NCBI RefSeq assembly: GCF_024055665.1
Contig: NZ_JAMXMC010000005.1
Coordinates: forward strand, 310,001-374,000
Origin: Ideonella oryzae
Lineage (GTDB): Bacteria > Pseudomonadota > Gammaproteobacteria > Burkholderiales > Burkholderiaceae_C
DNA length: 64,000 nucleotides
Direction: 5' to 3'
Both the position numbers and the translations under genes were made by a program. Positions 27,785 to 42,533 of this stretch are shown here, in pieces (position 1 is the first letter of the stretch; each line of letters begins with the position of its first letter). The notes under the pieces are model-generated. The model was not told where the DNA came from. It did no database searches and saw only the letters and a list, made by a program, of their open reading frames with translations.

Positions 27785-28117
27785 TCAGGCGGGCTTCTTG
27801 ACCCAGGCGTTGCACCAGCCGTTGGCGTGGATCTGTTTGCGGCCGAACATGGCACAGCCGGCCCATTCGTCACCGGCAGCGCCCTGGAAGAAGCCGCAGT
27901 CCGCGCAACGCTGCGAGGGCTGGTGCTTGGGGAACTTGGCGCTGTCGACCTTGGTCGTGTCGTGCTTGTAGCCCAGGGCCACCGCGGTTTCGTCGGTTTC
28001 CTCGAGGTGCTTGACCGGCAGGGCGGCCAGGGCCGATTCGGACAGGGCCGCGCCGGCACCGGCCACACCCAGGGCCTGGATCATGAAGACGCGACGGGAG
28101 AAGAAGGAAGAGTTCAT
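27785..28117 (-). CDS. High-potential iron-sulfur protein (HiPIP)
   Basis: A 110-residue periplasmic electron carrier. The N-terminus has a twin-arginine signal, S-R-R-V-F-M followed by a hydrophobic stretch, as expected for a cofactor-loaded Tat substrate. The mature part carries the HiPIP cysteine pattern: C-x2-C (C-A-D-C-G-F-F-Q-G), then W-A-G-C and G-W-C, four ligands for one [4Fe-4S] cluster. The ATG at 28117 is chosen over 28147 because the Tat signal begins there. It lies 95 bases downstream of the PQQ dehydrogenase on the same strand and may be cotranscribed as an electron acceptor. Confidence 0.92.
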   Translation of the reverse strand: MNSSFFSRRVFMIQALGVAGAGAALSESALAALPVKHLEETDETAVALGYKHDTTKVDSAKFPKHQPSQRCADCGFFQGAAGDEWAGCAMFGRKQIHANGWCNAWVKKPA

Positions 28118-28154
28118 GCTGCATGCTCCTGCCGGATGGCTGGCCATCCGGCGG

Positions 28155-28212: not shown

Positions 28213-29961
28213 TCAGTTCTTGGGCAGCTTGAACACCCACATGGTGCCGCCCTGCTCCAGGAAGTTGACCCGCTTGGCCACCTCGCCACCCCACAGCGGC
28301 ACGGCACCACCCCAGCCCGAGGCCACGGCCACGTACTGCTCGCCGTTCTGCTGCCAGGTGACCGGAGGCGCCACCACGCCGGAACCGGTCTGGAACTGCC
28401 AGACCACCTTGCCGGTCTTGGCGTCGGCGGCCTTCAGGTAGCCCTCAGGCGTGCCCCAGAACACCAGGTTGCCCCCGGTGGTCAGCACACCACCCCACAG
28501 CGGGGCGTTGTCCTTGACTTCCCAGACGATCTTGCCGGTCTTGGGGTCCACCGCGCGCAGCGCGCCGATGTAGTCCTCGTTGAGCGGCTTGATGGTGAAG
28601 CCCGCGCCCAGGTAGGCCGCGCCCTTCTTGTAGGCCACCGGCTCGTTCCAGATCTCCATGCCCCACTCGTTGGACGGCACGTAGAACAGGTGGGTCTGCG
28701 GGCTGTAGGCCATCGGCATCTGGTTCTTGCCACCCAGGAAGCCCGGCGCCGCAAACACCTCGCTGCCCTTCTTGCCGTCCGCGCTGCCCGTCGGATCGCC
28801 CGGGCGGTTTTCCGGCACGAAGTTCGGGCGACCGGTCTTCAGGTCCACGCCCGAAGCCCAGGTGATCTTCTTGACGAAGGGGAAGGCGTTCTGCAGCTTG
28901 CCGGTGGTGGCATCGAGCACGTAGAAGAAGCCGTTGCGGTCGGCCTTGGCGCCCAGGCGCTTGCCATCCTGGTCGAAGGTGATGAACTCGTTGGCGCCGT
29001 CGAAGTCCCAGCTGTCGTTGGGCGTGCCCTGGTAGTGCCAGACGATCTTGCCGGTCTTCACGTCGATGGCGACGGTGGAGCAGGAGAACAGGTTGTCACC
29101 CTTGCGCAGGTGGCTGTTCCAGGGGGCCGGGTTGCCGGTGCCGAAGTAGGCCAGACCGGTCTTGGGGTCGTAGGTGCCGCCCAGCCAGGTGGCCGCGCCG
29201 CCGGTCTTCCACAGGTCGCCCGGCCAGGTCTGGTTGGTCGTGCCGGAGACGCCGTTTTCCTTCTTGGTGCCGTCCTTGTCCCACATGTAGCCCATGTGGC
29301 CTTCGACGGTCGGGCGGGTCCAGACCAGCTTGCCGGTCTTGGGGTCACGCGCTTCGACGCGGCCGACCACGCCGAACTCACCGCCGGACACGCCGGTCAG
29401 CAGCAGGCCGTTGGCGATGATGGGGGCGGCGGTGGCCGAGTAGCCGGCCGCGTAGTCGTCGATCTTGGTCTTCCAGGCCAGCTCACCGGTGTCCTGCTTC
29501 AGGGCCACCAACTGGGCGTCCAGCGTGGCGAAGATCACCAGGTCGTCATACAGCGCAGCGCCGCGGTTGACCACGTCGCAGCAGGGCATGATGCCTTCGG
29601 GCAGGCGGTGCTCGTACTTCCACAGCTTCTTGCCGGTGGCCGCGTCCAGCGCATAGAGGCGCGAGTACGAACCGGTGATGAACATCCGGCCGTTGTAGAT
29701 CACCGGCTGGGATTCCTGGCCGCGCTGCTTTTCACCACCGAAGGAGAAAGCCCACGCGGGGGTGAGCTTGCTGACGTTGGCGGTGTTGATCTTGTTGAGC
29801 GGCGAGAAGCGCTGGCCTTGCGGCGTACCGCCCCAGCTCAGCACGTTGCCCGAGGCCGAAGACTCGGTGTCGATCATTTGATCGGTCACGCCAGCGGCGT
29901 GGGAAGTGGCGGCGGCAGCCAGGCCGATGGCCATCATCAAGTTCAAGAGGGTCGGTCGCAT
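28213..29961 (-). CDS. PQQ-dependent alcohol dehydrogenase, lanthanide type
   Basis: A 582-residue periplasmic quinoprotein with a signal peptide cleaved near H-A-A (residue 23). It is an eight-bladed propeller: W-motif repeats such as D-A-A-T-G-K-K-L-W and D-P-K-T-G-K-I-V-W are seen throughout. Active-site residues: adjacent disulfide Cys127-Cys128, metal-binding Glu195 (S-G-G-E) and Asn277 (G-T-G-N), catalytic Asp319. Asp321, two residues later (W-D-F-D-G), is the extra carboxylate known from lanthanide-dependent XoxF, ExaF and PedH; calcium enzymes have Ala or Ser there. No heme domain is fused. The substrate is probably a small alcohol; methanol, ethanol or others cannot be separated by eye. 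GAGGAGA precedes the ATG, and a sigma54 promoter lies upstream. Confidence 0.93.
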
Positions 29962-30187: not shown

Positions 30188-31186
30188 TCAGGCCGCGAGC
30201 CCGGGCCAACCCGCACTGGACCAGCGGCGACCGGCTTTGTCGATGGTCATCACCCCCACCCCCCAGTCCCGCGCCACCGTCGCGGCGCCTTGCGGCCCGG
30301 CCATGAAGACGACCTTGGTCAGCGCATCGGCCAGCGCGCCCTCGCGCGCCAGCACGCTGACCTCGGCCAAGGCCGGCGGCGAATCGCCGGTGCGCGGATC
30401 CAGGATGTGGTGGTGTCGGAAGTCCGGCGTGAAGCAGCTCGGGTTGTCCGCCGAGGTGGCCAGGCAGGCGCCCTGCAGCCCCACCCGGTCCACCCAGGCG
30501 TCGGCCTGGCGCGGGTCGGCCACCGCCAGCGTCCAGGGTTGGCCCTTGGCGTTGCGCCCCTGGGCTGCCCATTCACCGGCATCGACCAGGGCGTGGACCA
30601 CACCGTGGCGCTGGAGCAGCCGCGCCGTCAGGTCGGCCGCATGGCCCTGCGCGATGCCGTTGAGCGTGACCCCCATGCCCGGCCGCGCCAGGCGGATCTC
30701 GTCCTCGCCCAACTGCAGCCCCCGCCAGCCCACCTGGGCCCGGACGGTCTCACGCTCGGCGGTGGTGGGCAGTCGCCCGGCCTGGCGGCAGCGGTCGTAC
30801 AGGGCCCACAGCGGCTGCACCGTGACGTCGAAACTGCCACCGCTGCGCGCCGAAATCTCCTGAGCGCGGCGCAGCAGACCCAGCAGCTCGGCCGGCGGGC
30901 GGGCCAGCCGGCCGTCGCGGTTCAGGCGCGAGAGCGCACTGTCCGGGTCGAACAGGTTCATCTGCTCGTGCAGGCGCTGCAGCAGGGCCACCGCGGCGTC
31001 CAGCGCCTCGCGCAGGCGGGCGGGGTCCGTGTGGGCGGCCTGCAAGCTCAGCGTGGTGCCGAAGCCCACCAGCGAACGGGTGTCCCAGTGCAGGGGCTCG
31101 GTGGACGCCGCGGCGCGGGCGGCCGGCACGGCCCCTGGGGCCAGCAGCGTCGCCAGGGCGCAGCGAAGGAACTGTTGTCGGCGCAT
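30188..31186 (-). CDS. apbE: FAD:protein FMN transferase, ApbE/NosX family
   Basis: A 332-residue exported protein with an N-terminal signal (A-R-A-A-A at about residue 26). ApbE attaches FMN from FAD to a Thr of a target protein outside the membrane. The family pattern is seen: F-G-T-T-L near residue 42, the [15 protein letters not shown] segment, [19 protein letters not shown] and D-P-R-T-G, and the metal-binding Asp/Thr near A-D-A-L-T-K-V. It starts 20 bases after the NosR-like gene, whose FMN-binding Thr is the obvious substrate, as NosX serves NosR. Confidence 0.93.
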
Positions 31187-31206
31187 GGCAAGCCTCGCGG
31201 GGGGTT

Positions 31207-33372
31207 TCAGGCCGGGGCGCGGCCGGGCCGCTGGGCCGGCAACGCGCGGATCGGGATCACCCGCTGGCGCGCCTGGGCGATCAGCGGGGCGCAGCGGGCC
31301 GGGTCGTCGTGGATGGCCACGCAGTCCAGGCACTGGAAGCACTCGGCGTAGTCCACCGTGCCCTCGGGCGCGATGGCCTGGTAGTGGCAGCGGTGACGGC
31401 AGGTCTGGCAAGGTGTGCCGCACTCCATGCGCCGGGCGATCCAGTCCCAGCGGCGCAGCTGGCCCAGCAGGGCCAGGCCCGCGCCCAGCGGGCACAGGTA
31501 GCGGCAGAAGCCCTTGTAGAGAAAGAGCGACAGGGCCAGCAGCGCCACCGCCCAGGCCACCGCCGGCCAGGCGCGCTGGAAGCCCAGGGTGATGGCCGTC
31601 TTGAAGGGCTCGAACTCCACCACCCGGTCCACCCAGGCCCCATGCACCGGCGCCACGGCGGCCACGCCGACGATCCCCGCCAGCACGATGTACTTCAGGC
31701 GCTTGAGGCGCCGGTCCCAGGCCATGCGCAGGCGCCGGGGCTTCAGGCCCAGGCGTTGCCCCAGCATCGCCACCAGCTCCTGGAAGGCGCCGAAGGGGCA
31801 CAGCCAGCCGCAGAAGGTGCCACGGCCCCACAGCACCAGGCTCACCGCCACCACGGCCCACAGCGCCACCGTCATCGGGTCGAGCAGGAAGAAGCCCAGG
31901 CCGCGCCCTTCGCGCAGGGCCTGGATGAAGGCGGTGAGGTTGACGATGGAGAGCTGCCCCTGCGCCCACCAGCCGATGAAGCCCAGCGTGAAGAGCAGGA
32001 AGCCCACCCGCGCGCGCGGCAGCCAGTGTGGCCGGCTCACCCACACCGAGGGCCGCAGCAGCGCGCCGCCGAGCAGGGCCAGCGCCACCGCCAGCACAGC
32101 CAGGTCCACCCAGCGGCTCTTCCAGGCCGCCACCCACGGCGCCTGCGGCGGCTCGGGGCGGATCAGCTGGTCCTCGGGCAGGCTGTAGCGCAGCGTGAAG
32201 TCGCGGGCGATCTTCTCGACAAAGCCCGAACCCTTGACGCGCACCACCCGCAGACCGAAGTCCAGCGGCTGGCCCGGGTCCAGGCCGGCCGCGCCGATGA
32301 CACGCATCACCTTGGCATCGCGCGTGTTCCAGCCGGGCGGCAGCTTCAGCGGCTCGTCCAGGTCCAGGTCGCGCAGCTCGATCGAGAGCTCGCCCTGGTG
32401 CAGATTCAGGCGGTCGGGCACGGCGCCGCGGGTGAAGTCGTCGCCCACGAAGCTGTAGCCCGACAGCGGCACCACCAGCAAGGCATGGTCGCCCGGGTCG
32501 AGCCGGCCCTTCAGGTGGTCCCAGCCGGCCTCGCTGAGCAGGTTGCGGCCCACCAGCGGCGCGCTCAGCCAGGCCACCGCCACTTCCGCCAGCGGCGGCG
32601 CGCCCGGCGGCACCGATTGCTCCACGCCGCTGCCGGCAAAGGCCTTCTCGCCCTCGGCCGCCCCCACCGTCAGCACGCGGAGCAGGCCCGCGCGCTGCAG
32701 GGCGACGGCATCCATCGGCTGCCAACGGTCCTCGCGCACCCGGGCCAGGCTGGCCGGATCGGCCCCGCCGGCCCAGCCCATCTTGGCCCGGGCCACCTGC
32801 AAGGCGGCCGACAGCACGCTCTGGTTGACGATGCGCACCGAGGCGGTGGCCTTGGCCACGCCATCGAAGGTGACGTTGGCGCTGGTGGCCTGCACGCCGC
32901 GCGGCCCCGGCCCACCGATGCGCACCGACTGGCGCAACGACAGGCCCTTGTACTGTTCGACAAAGTGCAGCAGCGGTGCCGGCCCCAGGCCATCGACGAA
33001 GACCGGCTCATGCTGCGACACCACCTGCACATCGACCAGGCGGCCCTGCGGGTCCAGCACGATCAGCAGGTCCACCGGCGTGCCGGAGAAGCCCGGCAGC
33101 GCCGCGAAATCTACCGACTCGAAGACATAGCCGGCCAGGGAGCGGGAGGTGGTCTCCGGCCGGAACACCGGCCAGACCGGCAGCTGCGCATCGCGCTCGC
33201 CCAGCACCAGCGGGGCCGGCAGACGGGCCTGCAGCGCGGCGGCGTCCAGTTGGCCAGCCCAGCCCGGCAGGCTGGCCAGCAGCAGCCACACCGACACCCA
33301 GGCCGCCACCCAGTGGCGGGCGATGGCGCCCAGGCGGCGCAGCAGGCTCACGATCACCCGCTCTCCCCTCAT
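31207..33372 (-). CDS. NosR/NirI-like membrane flavo-iron-sulfur protein
   Basis: A 721-residue protein. It has a signal segment (about 18-38), a periplasmic FMN-binding domain in which D170-G-V-A-K-A-T176-A-S matches the flavinylation motif with Thr176 as the attachment site, a long beta-rich region, several membrane helices (about 422-620), two polyferredoxin motifs C-G-W-L-C-P (521-526) and C-R-Y-L-C-P (623-628), and a cytoplasmic 8-Cys ferredoxin pattern (Cys 651, 655, 658, 662, 678, 681, 684, 694). NosR moves quinol electrons towards nitrous oxide reductase, but no nosZ is here. The ATG overlaps the permease stop (ATGA); a GTG at 33357 behind AGGGGAG is an alternative start. Probable partner: ApbE next door. 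Confidence 0.88.
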   Translation of the reverse strand: MRGERVIVSLLRRLGAIARHWVAAWVSVWLLLASLPGWAGQLDAAALQARLPAPLVLGERDAQLPVWPVFRPETTSRSLAGYVFESVDFAALPGFSGTPVDLLIVLDPQGRLVDVQVVSQHEPVFVDGLGPAPLLHFVEQYKGLSLRQSVRIGGPGPRGVQATSANVTFDGVAKATASVRIVNQSVLSAALQVARAKMGWAGGADPASLARVREDRWQPMDAVALQRAGLLRVLTVGAAEGEKAFAGSGVEQSVPPGAPPLAEVAVAWLSAPLVGRNLLSEAGWDHLKGRLDPGDHALLVVPLSGYSFVGDDFTRGAVPDRLNLHQGELSIELRDLDLDEPLKLPPGWNTRDAKVMRVIGAAGLDPGQPLDFGLRVVRVKGSGFVEKIARDFTLRYSLPEDQLIRPEPPQAPWVAAWKSRWVDLAVLAVALALLGGALLRPSVWVSRPHWLPRARVGFLLFTLGFIGWWAQGQLSIVNLTAFIQALREGRGLGFFLLDPMTVALWAVVAVSLVLWGRGTFCGWLCPFGAFQELVAMLGQRLGLKPRRLRMAWDRRLKRLKYIVLAGIVGVAAVAPVHGAWVDRVVEFEPFKTAITLGFQRAWPAVAWAVALLALSLFLYKGFCRYLCPLGAGLALLGQLRRWDWIARRMECGTPCQTCRHRCHYQAIAPEGTVDYAECFQCLDCVAIHDDPARCAPLIAQARQRVIPIRALPAQRPGRAPA

Positions 33373-34241
33373 CCCGCCAGCCCCCGGCCACCGGCCCGCC
33401 CCAAACCGCGCTGCGGGTCGTAGGCCCAGCAGGCCAGCGCGAAACAGACGACCAGCGTGCCCAGCACGATCCACGGCGACGCCCCGGCCGACTGGCCGTG
33501 GAAGGCAAAGCGCATCCATTCGACCGCGTGGGTGAAGGGGTTGAGCTCGGCCACCCGGCTCACCCACTGCGCGCCGGAGGACTGCAGCTTCCACAGCGGA
33601 TACAGCGCGGTGGACAGGAAGTACAGCGGGAAGATCACGAAGTTCATCGCGCCAGCGAAGTTCTCCAGCTGGCGCACCGTGACCGACAACAGCAGGCCCA
33701 GCGCGGCCAGCATCAGCGCACTGACCAGCAGCGCCACCAGGCCGCCCAGGGCCGCCAGCGGATGCCAGGGCAGCGTGGTGCCCATGGCGGCCGCCACCGC
33801 CAGAAAGGCCGCCACCTGCACCAGGCTCAGCACCGCGGCGGCCAGCAGCCGCGCGCCCAGCAGCAGCGGGCGCGGCAGCGGCGCGGTCAGCAGCAGGCGC
33901 ATCAGGCCCATCTCGCGGTCGTAGACCAGCGCCAGCGAGGACTGCATGCCGTTGAAGAGCATCACCATGCCCATCAGGCCCGGCAGCACATAGGTGTCGT
34001 AGGGCACGGCGTCGCCATAGGGCGCGGTGGGCTGGGCGCCCAGGTCGTGGCGGAAGCCCGCGGCAAACACCGCCAGCCACAGCAGCGGCCGCACCAGGGC
34101 CGAGACCAGGCGGCCACGCTGCTGCACGAAGCGCTGCAACTCCCGGCCGACGATGGCCCCGATGGCGCCGGCGGCATGGGCCAGCGGCGCGCGGCGGCGC
34201 AGCGGTGGCGTGAGCACGGTGGCGGGATGGGGTGAGCGCAT
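33369..34241 (-). CDS. ABC-2 type transporter permease
   Basis: A 290-residue integral membrane protein with about six hydrophobic helices, after an N-terminal cytosolic stretch ending in I-V-G-R-E-L-Q-R-F. The ABC-2 signature region E-L-N-P-F-T-H-A-V-E lies near the C-terminus. Such permeases usually export. The ATPase gene lies 47 bases upstream; the NosR-like gene overlaps by 4 bases downstream. Comparable ABC genes accompany ped/exa quinoprotein loci in pseudomonads, and NosFY is another related pair. The substrate is unknown. Confidence 0.87.
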   Translation of the reverse strand: MRSPHPATVLTPPLRRRAPLAHAAGAIGAIVGRELQRFVQQRGRLVSALVRPLLWLAVFAAGFRHDLGAQPTAPYGDAVPYDTYVLPGLMGMVMLFNGMQSSLALVYDREMGLMRLLLTAPLPRPLLLGARLLAAAVLSLVQVAAFLAVAAAMGTTLPWHPLAALGGLVALLVSALMLAALGLLLSVTVRQLENFAGAMNFVIFPLYFLSTALYPLWKLQSSGAQWVSRVAELNPFTHAVEWMRFAFHGQSAGASPWIVLGTLVVCFALACWAYDPQRGLGRAGGRGLAG

Positions 34242-34288: not shown

Positions 34289-35005
34289 TCAGTGCTGAGT
34301 GGCCCGGAGGAAGGCCGCTTCCAGGGTCTGGCCGCCCAGCCGCTGGGTGACCACCTCGGGTGGGCCATCGGCCAGCAGGTGGCCGTGGTGCAGCACCAGC
34401 ACGCGGTCGGCCTGGGCCGCCTCGTCCACCAGGTGGGTGGCCCACAGCACGGTCAGGCCCTGCTCGCGCACGCCGGCCTGCAGATCGGCCAGCAGCTCCT
34501 GGCGCGAGCGTGGGTCCAGGCCCACGGTGGCCTCGTCCATCAGCAGCAGGGCGGGCCCGTGCAGCAGGGCGCGCGCCAGCTCCACCTTGCGGCGCTGGCC
34601 GCCAGAAAGGGTTCGCGCCGGCAGATCCAGCTGCTCGGTCAGGCGAAAGCGCTGGGCCAGCGCGGCAATACCCGCCTCGGCGTCGGCCGCCAGCAGCCCC
34701 TGCAGGCGTGCGTGAAAACGCAGGTTGCGTCGCACGGTCAGGTCCAGGTCCAAGGACGGCTGCTGGAACACCACGCCCAGCCGGGCCAGGGCCGCACAGG
34801 GCTGGCGGGCCAGGGAGCAGCCGGCCACCGTCACCTCGCCCTCGTCGGCCGCGTACAGGCCGCTGAGCACCTGGAACAGCGTGCTCTTGCCAGCGCCGTT
34901 GGGGCCCAGCAGCGCGGTGAAGCTGCCCGGCGCGATGTCCAGGTTCAGGTCATCCAGCGCCACCAGCGCGCCATAGCGCTGGGTCAGGCCGCGCACGCTC
35001 AGCAT
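34289..35005 (-). CDS. ABC transporter ATP-binding protein
   Basis: A 238-residue nucleotide-binding subunit. Walker A is G-P-N-G-A-G-K-S-T, the Q-loop is in V-V-F-Q-Q-P-S, the signature is L-S-G-G-Q-R-R, Walker B is L-L-L-M-D-E-A-T, and the switch His is in W-A-T-H-L. The ATG at 35005 lies inside the last codons of pqqE (7-base overlap); a longer in-frame extension is not supported. It pairs with the following permease. Confidence 0.92.
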   Translation of the reverse strand: MLSVRGLTQRYGALVALDDLNLDIAPGSFTALLGPNGAGKSTLFQVLSGLYAADEGEVTVAGCSLARQPCAALARLGVVFQQPSLDLDLTVRRNLRFHARLQGLLAADAEAGIAALAQRFRLTEQLDLPARTLSGGQRRKVELARALLHGPALLLMDEATVGLDPRSRQELLADLQAGVREQGLTVLWATHLVDEAAQADRVLVLHHGHLLADGPPEVVTQRLGGQTLEAAFLRATQH

Positions 35006-36213
35006 GCGGCCGCCGGCGCGGAGGCCAGGTCCGACAGGCCGTCGGCACTGAGCGCCAGCGACGCCGCATCGCCCCGGAAGACCAGCCCGCCCGCCTTGGC
35101 CGCGCCGGGCACGAAGCGCAGCGGTGCACTGGCCGGCTCGGCACGGTGGCGGGCCCCGTCCAGCACCGCGTCGATCAGGCCACGCGCCGGGCTCTTGGGG
35201 CAAACCGGGTCGGTGGCCGCGGCGTTGCCCGTCACCAGGAAGGCCTGGCAGCGGCAGCCGCCCAGGTCGGTGTGGCGATCGTCACAGCCGGCACAGGTGG
35301 GGTCCATCCAGCCCTGGCCGCGGTAGGCGTTGAAGGCCGCACTCTCGACCCAGGCCTCGCGCACCGGGGTGTCACGCAGGTTGGGAAAGTCCAGGCCCGG
35401 CAGCATGCGCGCGCTGTGGCAGGGCAGCGCCACGCCATCGGGCGCCACCACCAGGAAGACCGCCCCCCAGCCGGCCATGCAGGGCTTGGGCTTGGCATCG
35501 GCGTAGTCGGGCGACACCCACAGCACCTTCATGCGCGAGACCCCGCGTTCGCGGTAGGCCATGACCATGGCTTCGGCGTCGCGCAGTTCGTCTCGCGTGG
35601 GCATCAGGGCCTCGCGGTTGAGCCAGGCCCAGCCGTAGTACTGGGTGTTGGCCAGCTCCAGGTAGTCCGCACCCATGCGCTCGGCCATCTCGATGATGCG
35701 GCCCACATGCGGCAGGTTGAAGCGGTGCATCACGCAGTTGAGCACCATGGGGTAGCCCAGCGACTTGATGATGCCGGCCACCTTGTTCTTGAGCTCGAAA
35801 GTGCGGGTGGAGCTGATGAAGTCGTTGAGCTCGCGGGTGGAGTCCTGGAAGGACAGCTGGATGTGGTCCAGCCCCGCCTCCTTCAGGGCGCGGGCACGGG
35901 CCTCGGTCAGGCCGATGCCGGAGGTGATGAGGTTGGTGTAGAAGCCCAGGCCGTGGGCGTGGGCCACCAGCTCTTCCAGGTCCTCGCGCAGCAGGGGCTC
36001 GCCGCCGGAGAAGCCCAGCTGCACCGCGCCCATGGCACGGGCCTCGGCCAGCACGCGCTTCCAGGTGGCGGTGTCGAGCTCCTGGTCGTGGCGGGCGTAG
36101 TCCACCGGATTGGAGCAAAAGGCGCAGTGCAGCGGGCAGCGGTAGGTCAGCTCGGCCAGCAGCCAGAACGGCGGCTTGACCGAGGCCTGGGCAGCGGGTG
36201 GGAAGGGTGCCAT
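34999..36213 (-). CDS. pqqE: PqqA peptide cyclase, radical SAM enzyme
   Basis: A 404-residue SPASM radical SAM protein that forms the Glu-Tyr carbon bond in PqqA, the first committed step of PQQ synthesis. The radical SAM motif C-P-L-H-C-A-F-C lies near residue 30. The C-terminal SPASM cysteines include L-P-C-H-S, T-C-A-G-C-D-D, G-G-C-R-C and V-C-P-K-S, for auxiliary clusters. It starts 25 bases after pqqD, its peptide chaperone partner. Confidence 0.97.
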   Translation of the reverse strand: MAPFPPAAQASVKPPFWLLAELTYRCPLHCAFCSNPVDYARHDQELDTATWKRVLAEARAMGAVQLGFSGGEPLLREDLEELVAHAHGLGFYTNLITSGIGLTEARARALKEAGLDHIQLSFQDSTRELNDFISSTRTFELKNKVAGIIKSLGYPMVLNCVMHRFNLPHVGRIIEMAERMGADYLELANTQYYGWAWLNREALMPTRDELRDAEAMVMAYRERGVSRMKVLWVSPDYADAKPKPCMAGWGAVFLVVAPDGVALPCHSARMLPGLDFPNLRDTPVREAWVESAAFNAYRGQGWMDPTCAGCDDRHTDLGGCRCQAFLVTGNAAATDPVCPKSPARGLIDAVLDGARHRAEPASAPLRFVPGAAKAGGLVFRGDAASLALSADGLSDLASAPAAAC

Positions 36214-36238: not shown

Positions 36239-36511
36239 TCAGACCAGCCAGCCGCGCTCGCCGGCCTGGCCCAGAAAGGCCTGCACGTCGTCCGACAGCC
36301 CGCTCTGCTGGAAGCACTGCTCCAGGTCGGCGATGATGGCCGCCACGTCGCGCTGGCCGTCGCAGCGGCGCAGGATCTCGGCCGCCGGCGTGTTGAGCCG
36401 CACCATGCCCTCGGGGTAGAGCAGCACCCAGGCTTCCTGGGCCGCCTCGTACTGCAGACGGAACAGCGGTGCGATGCGGGGCGAGACCGACAGCGGCAGG
36501 GCGGGGTTCAT
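36239..36511 (-). CDS. pqqD: PQQ biosynthesis peptide chaperone PqqD
   Basis: A 90-residue RiPP recognition protein that binds PqqA and presents it to PqqE. The pattern [12 protein letters not shown] near residue 29 and [10 protein letters not shown] are typical. The ATG overlaps the pqqC stop by the four bases ATGA; the reading frame is open further upstream but only as pqqC antiphase sequence. Confidence 0.95.
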
Positions 36512-37275
36512 GGGCGGCGCTCCTCGGGCAGGTCGTCGGGGTAGGCGCGCTCGATCGCGTCGAGCATGCACCACAGCACATCGAGCTTGAAGTCCAGAAT
36601 CTCCAGGGCCCGCTCCTGGCGCGCGCGGGTGCTGCACCAGCGGCGCGCCACTTCCAGGCCGTGCTCCACGTCGCGCGTGGCCAGCGGGATTCGGCTGCGG
36701 AAGTAGCCCAGGCCTTCGGGCTGGATCCAGGGATACAGCGAGGGCCAGCCGGCCAGGCGGTCGGCGTGGATGCGGGGCGCGAACATCTCGGTCAGCGAGG
36801 AGATGGCCGCCTCTTCCCAGGGCGACTGGGCGGCGAAGTTGACATAGGCATCGACCGCGAAGCGCACGCCGGGCTGCACATGCCGGTGGCTCCAGAGGTC
36901 CTCGCGGGCCAGGCCGGTGGCCTCGCCCAGGCGGCTCCAGGCCTCGATGCCGCCGGCGTTGCTGCCCTCGTAGTCGCCCCGGCCGTCGTGGTCCAGGATG
37001 CGCTCGAGCCAGCGGCGACGTTCCTCGCGGTCCGGGCAGTGGGCCAGCACGGCCGCGTCCTTCTGCGGGATGCGGACCTGGTAGTAGAAGCGGTTGGCCA
37101 CCCAGCCGCGCACCTGGAAGGGCGCCAGCTCGCCGCGGTTGAGCCGGCCGTTGAAGGGGTGGTGGATGTGGTAGCGCGATTCACGCGCGCGCAGCCGGGC
37201 TTCGAACTCGGTCCAGGCCCAGGGGGCGCGTTCGTCGAATGCGGGGGGGGCGCTGTCAAAAACCAGGGCGTTCAC
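36508..37275 (-). CDS. pqqC: Pyrroloquinoline-quinone synthase PqqC
   Basis: A 255-residue, cofactor-free oxidase that performs the final ring closure and eight-electron oxidation to PQQ. Recognised by [20 protein letters not shown] and the helical bundle that follows. I chose the GTG at 37275, which overlaps the pqqB stop as GTGA; upstream ATGs lie in pqqB sequence. Length agrees with the family (about 250). Confidence 0.95.
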
Positions 37276-38204
37276 AGCGTGATCTCCATGCCGTCGTAGG
37301 CCACCTCGACACCGCTGGCGGTCAGCAGGGCGCGCTGCGCGCTGCCTTCGTCCAGGATGGGGTTGCTGTTGTTGATGTGGATGAGCACCTTGCGGCGCGC
37401 CAGGGTGGTCTGCAGCACTTCCAGCATGCCGGGGCACCCGGGTCGGCCGGTCTGCGGCAGGTGCCCCATTTCGGCGGCGGGCTTGCTGCTCAGGCCGGCG
37501 GCCTGCATCTCGTCCTCGCGCCAGAAGGTGCCGTCCACCATCAGGCAATCGGCCCGGCGCATCCAGCCCAGCTCCAGCTCGCCCACCTCGGCCAGGCCGG
37601 GGGAATAGAACAGGGTCTGGCCATCGCGCCGATCCTCGATCAGCAGGGCGATGTTGTCGCCCACCACCTGCTCGCGGCGGTGCGGCGAATACGGCGGTGC
37701 CTTGCCGGGAATGGCCACGGCGGTGAAGGACAGGTCCTCGAAGCCGGGGATCTCGAATTCGGCGCTCTGCTGCTCGGCGCCCACGGGCACCATGTGCCAG
37801 CGGGTGCCGCAGTAATGCTCCAGCACATTGAGCAGGGGCAGGCCGGTGGTCAGGTCCTCGAACACGCAGGGCGTGGCGTAGAGGTTGATGCGCGGGCCTT
37901 CGCGCAGGCCCAGCAGGCCGGTGACGTGGTCGATCTGCGCATCCATCAGCACCACCGCCTCGATGGGGGTGTGGCGCAGCCCGTGGCGCGGGTGCAGCTG
38001 AGGATGCTGGCGGATCTGGGTGCCGATGTCCGGGGAAGCGTTGAGCAACACCCAGCGCTCGCCGTCAGGCGAGACGGCGATGGAGCTCTGGGTGCGGGCC
38101 TGGGCGCTGATCTGGCCCTGCCGCTGGCCGGCACACAGGGCGCAGTTGCAGTTCCACTGCGGGAAGCCGCCACCCGCGCCGGAGCCGAGCACAAGGATTT
38201 TCAT
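37272..38204 (-). CDS. pqqB: PQQ biosynthesis protein PqqB
   Basis: A 310-residue metallo-beta-lactamase-fold protein, proposed to act as a hydroxylase on the crosslinked Glu-Tyr intermediate. The N-terminal [15 protein letters not shown] is the family signature, with two Cys near a zinc site. D-A-Q-I-D-H and H-I-N-N-S-N-P are also seen. It follows pqqA by 87 bases and overlaps pqqC by 4. Confidence 0.96.
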
Positions 38205-38291: not shown

Positions 38292-38366
38292 TCAGCGCGC
38301 GGCGATGTACATCGTGATCTCGAAGCCGAAACGCAGGTCTTGATAGGCGGGGGTGGTCCAGGTCAT
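38292..38366 (-). CDS. pqqA: PQQ precursor peptide
   Basis: A 24-residue peptide, the ribosomal substrate for PQQ. It contains F-E-I-T-M-Y, giving Glu16 and Tyr20, the invariant E-x3-Y pair that is crosslinked. M-T-W-T at the start and I-A-A-R at the end are family-like. GGAGA precedes the ATG at a good distance. It is the first gene of the operon and follows a sigma54 promoter. The peptide-releasing protease PqqFG is not in this window. Confidence 0.95.
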   Translation of the reverse strand: MTWTTPAYQDLRFGFEITMYIAAR

Positions 38367-41164: not shown

Positions 41165-41671
41165 ATGACCTCGACCGTTTCCCGCAACCGACTCCATCCC
41201 TTGGCACGCTGGGCACGCATGGGCGCGCTGCTGTGCAGCCTGGGCGCTGCCGGCCTGGCCGCCTGGGCCCATGGCGACGTGACGCCCCAACCCATCGACA
41301 CCACTGGCCTGCCCAACCTGGGCGAGGGCTGGCGCACCGAGAATCCGTTCAGCGGCAACGAGCTGGCCATCAAGATCGGCACCTCGGGCTTCAACCAGAA
41401 CTGCGCCCGCTGCCACGGCCTGGAGGCCATCTCCGGCGGCATCGCCCCCGACCTGCGCCGCCTGGACAACGACTGCGTGGGCATGCCCGACGCCGACCAG
41501 CGCAAGGCCTGCAAGACCGAGATGGACGAGTACTTCATCACCACCGTCCGCCATGGGCGCACCCGCAACGGCGCGGTCTACATGCCGCCGTTCGAAGGCG
41601 TGCTGAGTCAAGAGGCCCTGTGGACCATCAAGTCCTACCTCGAAACCCGCCGCGAAAAGCCCATGCCCTGA
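41165..41671 (+). CDS. Cytochrome c-550, PedF type
   Basis: A 168-residue periplasmic cytochrome c. After a signal segment (to A-W-A-H, about residue 36) the mature protein begins G-D-V-T-P-Q-P-I-D-T-T-G-L-P, a start characteristic of PedF-type cytochromes that take electrons from quinoprotein alcohol dehydrogenases. The heme site is C-A-R-C-H (80-84); the axial Met is probably Met140 in V-Y-M-P-P-F. Extra Cys at 104 and 116 may form a disulfide. AGGAGA precedes the ATG at 41165. First gene of a three-gene operon. Confidence 0.9.
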   Translation: MTSTVSRNRLHPLARWARMGALLCSLGAAGLAAWAHGDVTPQPIDTTGLPNLGEGWRTENPFSGNELAIKIGTSGFNQNCARCHGLEAISGGIAPDLRRLDNDCVGMPDADQRKACKTEMDEYFITTVRHGRTRNGAVYMPPFEGVLSQEALWTIKSYLETRREKPMP

Positions 41672-41690: not shown

Positions 41691-42533
41691 ATGCACACCA
41701 CGAACCCTGGCCGCCGCGCCCTGCTGCGCGGCCTGGCCGCCGTCGCCCTGACGGCGCCAATGTGGCCTGCCGCGGCCACCACGCTGGCCCAGGTGCGCGA
41801 ACGCGGCACCCTGAAGGTCGGCATCTACAACGACATGCCACCGTTCCACCAGAACGGCAAGGGCATCGACGTCGACGTGGGTCAAGCCCTGGCCGACGCG
41901 CTCGGGGTGAAACTGGCGCTGCTGCCGTTCACCGCCGATGAAAACATGAACGACGACCTGCGCAACATGGTTTGGAAGGGGCATTACCTGGGCTACGGCC
42001 CGGCGGATGTGCTGCTGCATGTGCCGGTGGACGCGCCGCTGATGGATGCCAACCCGCAGACGCTGATCTTCGGCCCCTATTGCCGCGAGAAAGTTGCCAT
42101 TGCGCGGCGGCTGTCCGAACTGCCCCGGCTCGACACCCTCACCCCGCTGGTCGGCCAGCCGGTGGCCGTGCCGGGTCAGACCCTGGCGGGCTGGTTGTTG
42201 ATCGGCGCCAACGACGGCATGCTGCGAGACACCCTGCGCACCCAATGGAAGGATGGCACCGAGGCGGCCCGGGCCCTGAGCCAGGGCGAAGTGGTGGCCG
42301 CGGCCGGCCTGGCCTCCGAGCTGCAGAGCGTGCTGCAGGACGACCCACGTTTTGCGATCACCCCCCTGCCCATGCCCCAGGCCCCGCGCGATGGCTGGGC
42401 CGTGGGCCTGGCCGTCAAGCGCGATGCCGAGGACCTGGCCGGTGCCCTGAGCGCCGCGCTGGCCCAGATGACCCAGGATGGCCGCCTGCGCCAGATCTTT
42501 GCGAAGCAACATGTGACGTGGCAGGCCGCCTGA
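41691..42533 (+). CDS. Quinoprotein-associated periplasmic binding protein (MoxJ/XoxJ-like)
   Basis: A 280-residue exported protein of the type III solute-binding fold. The N-terminus R-R-A-L-L-R-G followed by a hydrophobic stretch is a twin-arginine-like signal. L-K-V-G-I-Y-N-D-M-P-P-F and G-I-D-V-D-V-G-Q-A-L-A are typical of quinoprotein-dehydrogenase-associated binding proteins. MoxJ/XoxJ members are thought to help mature or activate the dehydrogenase, not to import a solute; no ABC partner follows. It lies 19 bases after the cytochrome. Confidence 0.85.
   Translation: MHTTNPGRRALLRGLAAVALTAPMWPAAATTLAQVRERGTLKVGIYNDMPPFHQNGKGIDVDVGQALADALGVKLALLPFTADENMNDDLRNMVWKGHYLGYGPADVLLHVPVDAPLMDANPQTLIFGPYCREKVAIARRLSELPRLDTLTPLVGQPVAVPGQTLAGWLLIGANDGMLRDTLRTQWKDGTEAARALSQGEVVAAAGLASELQSVLQDDPRFAITPLPMPQAPRDGWAVGLAVKRDAEDLAGALSAALAQMTQDGRLRQIFAKQHVTWQAA

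Follow-up and report, generated by a model that had tools for sequence, protein, structure and literature searches.

Genes for a NosR-like membrane flavoprotein and for the flavin transferase ApbE lie side by side in Ideonella oryzae, within a stretch of 64,000 nucleotides (positions 310,001-374,000 of contig NZ_JAMXMC010000005.1, assembly GCF_024055665.1) that is called here the window and to which the coordinates below refer. Several described systems come close to this gene pair. NosR itself, from the nosRZDFYLX clusters, displays the same domain order, twelve cysteines and a domain binding flavin mononucleotide (FMN); it too is partnered by an ApbE, and its operon includes an ATP-binding cassette (ABC) transporter. 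The window protein differs from it by its score against the NCBIfam NosR model (530.7 bits over residues 45-702, where the cut-off of 1000 is not reached), by its separate clade, by a genome devoid of nosZ and by a lysine in place of a glycine in the flavin motif. NirI, from the nirS clusters, shares the superfamily and the iron-sulfur motifs and falls in a separate clade, represented here by ten sequences. A third system was reported in 2021 by Meheust et al., who described NapH-like flavinylated clusters that include an ethanol oxidase (ExaA) in 172 genomes (PMC8238504); these clusters likewise combine an alcohol dehydrogenase dependent on pyrroloquinoline quinone (PQQ) with ApbE and a membrane iron-sulfur protein whose N-terminal domain binds FMN. 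In the model proposed by these authors, the flavoprotein transports the electrons of the oxidase, a task for which other organisms use cytochrome c; they also state that the links to exaA arose several times (PMC8238504). The initial annotation of the window knew of no described role for such a pair in alcohol oxidation, a statement that this published electron path contradicts.

Two further systems are relevant on the side of the dehydrogenase. The ped and lut lanthanide clusters (PMC12997753, PMC6839425) have PedB, PedC, PedF, a lanthanide-type dehydrogenase and pqq genes in common with the window. The main text of the 2026 review on the Pseudomonas ped genes (PMC12997753) contains none of the words flavin, FMN or 4Fe-4S, and in the open-access literature a NosR-type protein or ApbE could be linked to lanthanide-type dehydrogenases only through the ExaA cluster of PMC8238504. 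The last system is the quinoprotein relay of SoxYZ-like and SoxH-like proteins (TIGR04557, TIGR04558), which is found in the position of the pair, in front of the same dehydrogenase. Its components, a sulfur carrier and a metallohydrolase, are unrelated to NosR and ApbE, and the likeness would be one of function, not of membership. The relay has been proposed to act in disulfide formation, in cofactor stabilisation or in the protection of PQQ from sulfur compounds (PMC12997753). In the absence of lanthanides, its genes (PP_2677-PP_2678 in Pseudomonas putida KT2440) showed little phenotype (PMC12997753).

The NosR-ApbE module is real and conserved, was partly described in 2021, and can here be tied to a clade, to an altered flavin motif, to a lanthanide-type enzyme and to a relay that it has apparently displaced. 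There is almost no doubt that it belongs with the ExaA clusters of PMC8238504 as one kind of system. With respect to what the relevant sections of that paper describe, the features particular to the present data are the single clade obtained in the sampled set, the nearly constant presence of PedF, the lanthanide type of the enzyme, the lysine in the motif and the slot shared with SoxYZ-SoxH. On the minus strand of the window, the gene order is pqqA-B-C-D-E-pedB-pedC-nosR-apbE, followed by a PQQ alcohol dehydrogenase gene and then by a HiPIP-like (high-potential iron-sulfur protein) gene. The coordinates and the strand of the nosR-like gene (31207-33372, minus) and of apbE (30188-31186, minus) were correctly given by the initial annotation, as were the ATGA overlap in which the permease gene stops and the nosR-like gene starts and the gap of 20 bases from the nosR-like stop to the apbE start. 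The dehydrogenase gene lies 226 bases further downstream on the same strand. Judged by their spacing, the genes from pqqA to apbE would constitute one transcript. The pair had been placed inside a pqq operon; the run with pqqABCDE on the same strand can indeed be observed, but the pair belongs to its downstream part, after pedB-pedC.

The nosR-like gene encodes a NosR/NirI-type flavoprotein of 721 amino acids, in which a signal or anchor helix is followed by a periplasmic FMN-binding domain, a second periplasmic beta domain, membrane helices and a ferredoxin domain with eight cysteines. The whole architecture of the NosR/NirI superfamily is therefore present (FMN-binding domain, membrane helices, two CxxxCP motifs and eight-cysteine ferredoxin domain), and the twelve cysteines, two CxxxCP motifs plus eight of ferredoxin type, bear out the polyferredoxin motifs and the ferredoxin domain announced initially. 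The Pfam family Fer4_5 is matched at 65.5 bits, above its gathering score, and FMN_bind at 17 bits, under its gathering score of 22. This protein is thus a PF12801 protein clustered with ApbE, as in the NapH-like flavinylated systems. A profile of its relatives matches RnfG (E 0.003 and 0.0003) in a sequence search of solved structures. An AlphaFold2 model (mean predicted local distance difference test score, pLDDT, 82.7; predicted template modelling score, pTM, 0.66) aligns over residues 1-203, N-terminal helix included, with RnfG (VIA Z 12.7, root-mean-square deviation 7.9, 172 residues aligned) and with NqrC (VIA Z 8.8, root-mean-square deviation 7.4, 178 residues aligned). Foldseek alone ranked RnfG first, with no match at E <= 0.001, and no NosR structure was found among the solved-structure sequence matches or the listed fold matches. 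The neighbouring gene encodes a FAD:protein FMN transferase of 332 amino acids (Pfam ApbE, 207.6 bits).

The evolutionary position of this protein was examined with homologues gathered from 399 genomes of the order, from plasmids and from named genomes, the genes of their neighbourhoods being labelled by similarity to reference proteins. The search of named genomes used pqq-type sequences, and its best 80 loci out of 582 confirmed were retained, so that the finding of one clade holds for the sampled set. In the resulting tree, which comprises 130 NosR-family proteins, one branch with a support of 99 (Shimodaira-Hasegawa-like approximate likelihood ratio test, SH-aLRT) holds 90 sequences: all 61 that are linked to PQQ or alcohol dehydrogenase genes, plus 29 that are unlinked. 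The 23 nos and ten nir sequences fall outside this clade, whose linked loci are distributed among the Alpha-, Beta- and Gammaproteobacteria. At least one of pqqB/C/E, exaA, pedF or a pedG-like gene accompanies 59 of the 61 linked sequences, the other two being assigned on weaker evidence; two or more gene types belonging to the system are present for 57, and four are linked by a single gene type. The ten nir loci were set apart by hand after looking at 20 neighbours, the pqqE and YVTN labels there having fallen on NirJ-like and other propeller proteins; NirJ itself is over its cut-off in L154, and most of the others were recognized by similar radical S-adenosylmethionine (radical-SAM) neighbours. 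A pqqE-like match was seen in one of the 23 nos loci, L126. The co-occurrence search and the NosR tree suggested by the initial annotation are thereby provided, and its proposal of a membrane electron-transfer module belonging with the quinoprotein system is upheld by the linkage to pqq, exaA and ped genes in many genomes and by a clade apart from nos.

The candidate flavin site of this clade is conserved, in a form of its own. The initial annotation had designated Thr176 as the flavinylation site, and this residue (codon 32845-32847, minus strand) indeed shares an alignment column with the flavin-carrying SGAT threonine of all 33 nos and nir sequences and lies at the N-terminal end of a helix in the AlphaFold2 model. 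The surrounding motif, D170-G-V-A-K-A-T176, is nevertheless non-canonical, a point that had been missed: it departs from the D-x-x-[ST]-G-A-[ST] motif recognized by ApbE (PMC12052999). At position 5, lysine is found in 78 of the 90 clade sequences, methionine in five and glycine in one, whereas the 33 nos and nir sequences all have glycine there and threonine at position 7. The latter position is threonine in 89 clade members and serine in one, and the twelve iron-sulfur cysteines are kept in 90 out of 90. According to the review PMC12052999, the replacement of this glycine by alanine lowers flavinylation, and the change from glycine to lysine should therefore matter. Where an apbE gene is nearby, it lies directly 3' of the nosR-like gene on the same strand in every case (61 of 61 clade loci). 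The linked ApbE proteins form no clade of their own, as a mark of changed specificity, in an ApbE tree of 80 sequences, in which the nos-linked ones are interspersed.

Some members of the family deviate from this pattern. Six sequences (L034, L082, L084, L097, L099 and L107) constitute a sub-clade with apbE directly downstream and a motif, such as HGVQAGT, that departs from D-G-V-x-K-A-T; L034 coexists with L033 in one genome, and a paralogue with another partner is possible. Six sequences near neither the PQQ nor the nos/nir gene sets (L038-L043) form the sister group of the 90-member clade. Their motif is DGISSAT or HGISSAT, apbE is nearby in five of the six, and in L039 the nosR-like gene has housekeeping genes as neighbours, rpoD and dnaG among them. 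The six genomes concerned have pqqE over cut-off, several PQQ dehydrogenases and no nosZ match. In eight gammaproteobacterial loci (L091, L093, L096, L104, L108, L110, L120 and L132), the nosR-like gene stands beside pqq genes with no apbE in range.

The initial annotation also stated that nos genes were absent. For nosZ this is true of the whole genome (G000; 4.70 Mb in 31 contigs, 99% complete), which yields no match, and which contains a single NosR homologue; the search thus revealed no nosZ elsewhere that lacks a nosR of its own. For nosD and nosL, and likewise for nosF and nosY, no match was obtained in positions 20001-45000 of the window, the only region searched for them. The possibility of a nos-cluster fragment was rejected on the basis of this missing nosZ and of the separate clade. 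In 50 other clade genomes, nosZ gave no match at E <= 1e-30 in 33 and a match over 500 bits in 15. These 50 correspond to 50 of the 75 non-nos named loci, 24 unlinked and 26 linked (hand-chosen, mostly isolates). It is very improbable that the gene is a spare part or a relic of NosR that came to lie near pqq genes by chance. Such a view could invoke the many pqqE-bearing genomes that do without a NosR-like protein, pqqE being over cut-off in 75 of the 399 genomes of the order and in five of the six core-clade ones (Fisher test, 0.001; 11 of 12 when the sister group is added). Against it stand the conservation of the catalytic features in 90 out of 90 sequences, the recurrence of the linkage in three classes of Proteobacteria and the presence of pqqE in 18 of the 24 genomes whose NosR-like gene is unlinked.

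The partner of the module appears to be a particular dehydrogenase. The enzyme encoded downstream of apbE (28213-29961, minus strand; TIGR03075, 762 bits) has a vicinal cysteine pair and an aspartate at the extra metal position (WDFDG at 319), a lanthanide-type signature that the initial annotation had overlooked. This residue, aspartate in PedH and Ser 295 in PedE, marks the metal type (PMC5487730), and a D-x-D rule has been given for the lanthanide type (PMC11996626). Among 45 dehydrogenase pieces from linked loci, 34 are of lanthanide type (Asp), three of calcium type (WDFSGNN) and eight unreadable, the last being fragments or pieces with no readable motif, including a nearly complete enzyme in L070. 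The lanthanide type thus accounts for 34 of the 37 with a readable motif, and each locus with a calcium-type enzyme also holds a lanthanide-type one. A close homologue of the window dehydrogenase (at least 73% identity) is present in all six core-clade Burkholderiales genomes, versus 13 of 64 pqqE-bearing genomes of the order that lack the clade protein (over 860 bits; Fisher test, 0.0002); close homologues therefore also exist without a NosR-like protein. In I. oryzae itself, four PQQ alcohol dehydrogenases score above the TIGR03075 cut-off and one below. The pair also adjoins a lanthanide-type dehydrogenase in, for example, Variovorax paradoxus and a Methylorubrum strain that carries the locus on a plasmid.

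The tie to this enzyme is stronger than that to cofactor synthesis. In the 50 further clade genomes, pqqE is over cut-off in 39. A PQQ alcohol dehydrogenase is present in 60 of the 62 genomes searched (clade and sister group). Of the 12 clade genomes that lack pqqE over cut-off, 11 still have one, which eliminates a role tied to PQQ synthesis alone. Three loci of Oxalobacteraceae type (L031, L066 and L069) combine nosR-apbE with a lanthanide-type dehydrogenase, and no pqqE is over cut-off in their genomes; a PqqU-like TonB receptor in L031 and L069 hints at scavenged PQQ.

The published model for this kind of cluster makes the flavoprotein an electron outlet, taking electrons from the dehydrogenase or from PedF inward to quinone, in replacement of cytochrome c or as a branch from it (PMC8238504). 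The linkage to the alcohol dehydrogenase agrees with this model, and a reversal of the flow was itself allowed for in PMC8238504. The transporter and the cytochrome of the ped clusters are nevertheless present here, PedB, PedC and PedF all being over their cut-offs (TIGR03864, TIGR03861 and TIGR04494). Of 56 clade genomes, 53 contain a PedF over cut-off, and 28 of the 39 linked loci with a dehydrogenase have one in range; in the window, its gene lies at 41165-41671 on the plus strand (start inferred; 198 bits). The catalytic acceptor being present, nothing is replaced, and a cytochrome substitute fits these data poorly. A second difficulty is energetic, PQQ having a potential near +90 mV. An ApbE-flavinylated protein at -184 mV has been termed relatively high in potential (PMC12052999, a review), so that a step from the dehydrogenase to the flavin would run uphill. 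A side branch is still compatible with the observations, as is an outlet in the three clade genomes without PedF (G409, G410 and G413, carrying L097, L099 and L107), all of which belong to the six-member sub-clade with the odd motif. On balance, an electron outlet appears rather unlikely.

A different indication comes from the slot that the pair occupies. In control loci L222 and L223, which have no nosR-like gene, the genes succeed one another as YVTN, pedA, pedC, SoxYZ-like, SoxH-like and dehydrogenase, and a comparable order, pedA, pedC, nosR, apbE and dehydrogenase (exaA), can be observed in L062 and L083. The L223 dehydrogenase falls inside a clade (support 99) with those of five nosR-apbE loci, and that of the relay locus L221 groups with the enzymes encoded in the window and in L051, L052 and L057 (support 95). 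Among 51 lanthanide-type loci, 26 hold nosR and apbE, 12 a SoxYZ-like gene, none holds both and 13 hold neither (Fisher test, 3.3e-5, kinship ignored). At the level of whole genomes, 12 of 13 control genomes, which have a close dehydrogenase without a clade NosR, contain a SoxYZ-like protein over cut-off, against 17 of 56 clade genomes, or 18 if a G354 match running across two stops is included; within the Burkholderiales only, the counts are 12 of 13 and 9 of 20, respectively (Fisher test, 0.009). In I. oryzae, the SoxYZ-like matches are two split ones of 74 and 63 bits, under the cut-off of 140, and no fused carrier was recognized.

The relay and the NosR-ApbE pair probably serve the same job for the dehydrogenase. 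Since PedF is retained, this common job is not the catalytic electron exit, and the catalytic electrons would be taken by PedF. It is possible, if clearly short of likely, that the two are interchangeable unrelated machines for one task on lanthanide-type dehydrogenases, redox upkeep or maturation, exchanged by non-homologous displacement, with an ApbE that accepts the lysine-for-glycine motif. Several observations weigh against such an exchange. Three linked loci hold nosR and the relay together, without apbE, and the 13 lanthanide-type loci mentioned above have neither pair in range. SoxYZ-like proteins occur in 6 of 31 genomes with a linked apbE and in 11 of 25 that have NosR minus a linked apbE. 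When kinship is taken into account on the dehydrogenase tree, only six independent pairs are available and the test is underpowered (median p 0.25), the relay running opposite to nosR-apbE in 2.7 pairs on average and the same way in 0.0; the NosR tree gives only two independent pairs. Finally, the rhodanese family PQQ_CXXCW is over cut-off in 8 of 69 genomes, each with a SoxYZ-like protein as well, and a shared thiol pathway is therefore not supported. This family was searched separately from a protein of 152 amino acids in L055 that gave no NCBIfam match and counts as a hypothetical protein only.

The conserved anatomy, the single clade, the linkage to lanthanide-type enzymes, the presence of PedF and the slot shared with the relay are the observations that a function has to accommodate. 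Among the suggestions of the initial annotation, enzyme maturation fits best. The pair is tentatively regarded as an outward flavin and iron-sulfur conduit, an accessory dedicated to the maturation or maintenance of the lanthanide-type PQQ alcohol dehydrogenase in the periplasm, a reading held at somewhat less than even confidence. ApbE would attach FMN to Thr176 of the NosR-like protein. As suggested by this anatomy and by NosR, electrons would pass between the membrane quinol pool or the cytosol and the periplasm by way of two 4Fe-4S clusters and the FMN. Their direction would be outward, to the maturation or repair of the dehydrogenase, where the target to be reduced may be the vicinal disulfide during assembly or an inhibited or blocked PQQ. 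Elsewhere, the same job would be done by the SoxYZ-SoxH quinoprotein relay.

The transporter genes beside the pair bring in the question of metal supply. Reductive metal acquisition, in which the module would reduce a periplasmic iron or metal chelate so that PedABC and TonB receptors supply lanthanide or spare it from iron, is unlikely. As a matter of general chemistry, a cell cannot reduce lanthanide(III) itself, which speaks against the idea. In control loci that lack nosR (L222, L223 and L227-L229), SoxYZ-SoxH is accompanied by this same transporter and by the receptors, and in L031, L066 and L069 the nosR-apbE pair adjoins the dehydrogenase and not the transporter. The idea can nevertheless draw on pedB- or pedC-type genes in 20 and 18 of the 61 linked loci, on TonB-receptor-like genes in 11-12 of them, on the requirement for PedA1A2BC at low lanthanide in P. 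putida, where iron also matters (PMC6839425), and on the flavinylation tied to iron uptake elsewhere (PMC8238504).

A redox sensor or regulator of the operon is quite improbable. It is evoked by the name of the NCBIfam NosR model, a transcriptional regulator, and by the sigma-54-type regulators and response regulators found in 17 and 15 of the 61 linked loci, respectively. These are however dedicated regulators already in place, no DNA-binding domain appears among the NCBIfam and Pfam matches of the NosR-like protein, and the iron-sulfur ligands and flavin site that are all kept would be needless for a passive sensor.

The role in dehydrogenase maturation or upkeep, if true, would correct the published model in which the flavoprotein substitutes for cytochrome c, and would provide a natural pair of ApbE and substrate with a changed recognition motif, useful for flavin tagging. 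Lanthanide enzymes are widespread, and their SoxYZ-SoxH neighbours have been named as families but not assigned a function. The element that is new here is the sharing of one slot by nosR-apbE and SoxYZ-SoxH, without co-occurrence in the 51 lanthanide-type loci; if an electron conduit takes the place of the relay, the job must be open to redox chemistry.

The remaining genes of the locus complete this picture. Upstream of the pair on the minus strand are found a PedC-type ABC permease (33369-34241, start inferred; TIGR03861, 324 bits), a PedB-type ABC ATPase (34289-35005, start inferred; TIGR03864 PQQ_ABC_ATP, 311 bits), pqqE (34999-36213; TIGR02109, 500.6 bits), pqqD (36239-36511, start inferred; assigned by position and reading frame), pqqC (36508-37275, GTG start inferred; TIGR02111, 295.9 bits), pqqB (37272-38204; TIGR02108, 400.6 bits) and pqqA (38292-38366), whose precursor of 24 amino acids was read directly. 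A sigma-54-type regulator separates these pqq-nosR genes from the plus-strand genes upstream, namely pedF and a gene for a PedG/XoxJ-like periplasmic binding protein (41691-42533), which gives weak generic binding-protein matches and resembles proteins found beside pedF elsewhere. At the other end, 3' of the dehydrogenase gene, lies the minus-strand gene 27785-28147, whose product has no NCBIfam match and is, judging from its sequence, presumably HiPIP-like. A HiPIP-like gene is also near the dehydrogenase gene in L051 and L057, and a further electron carrier is possible.

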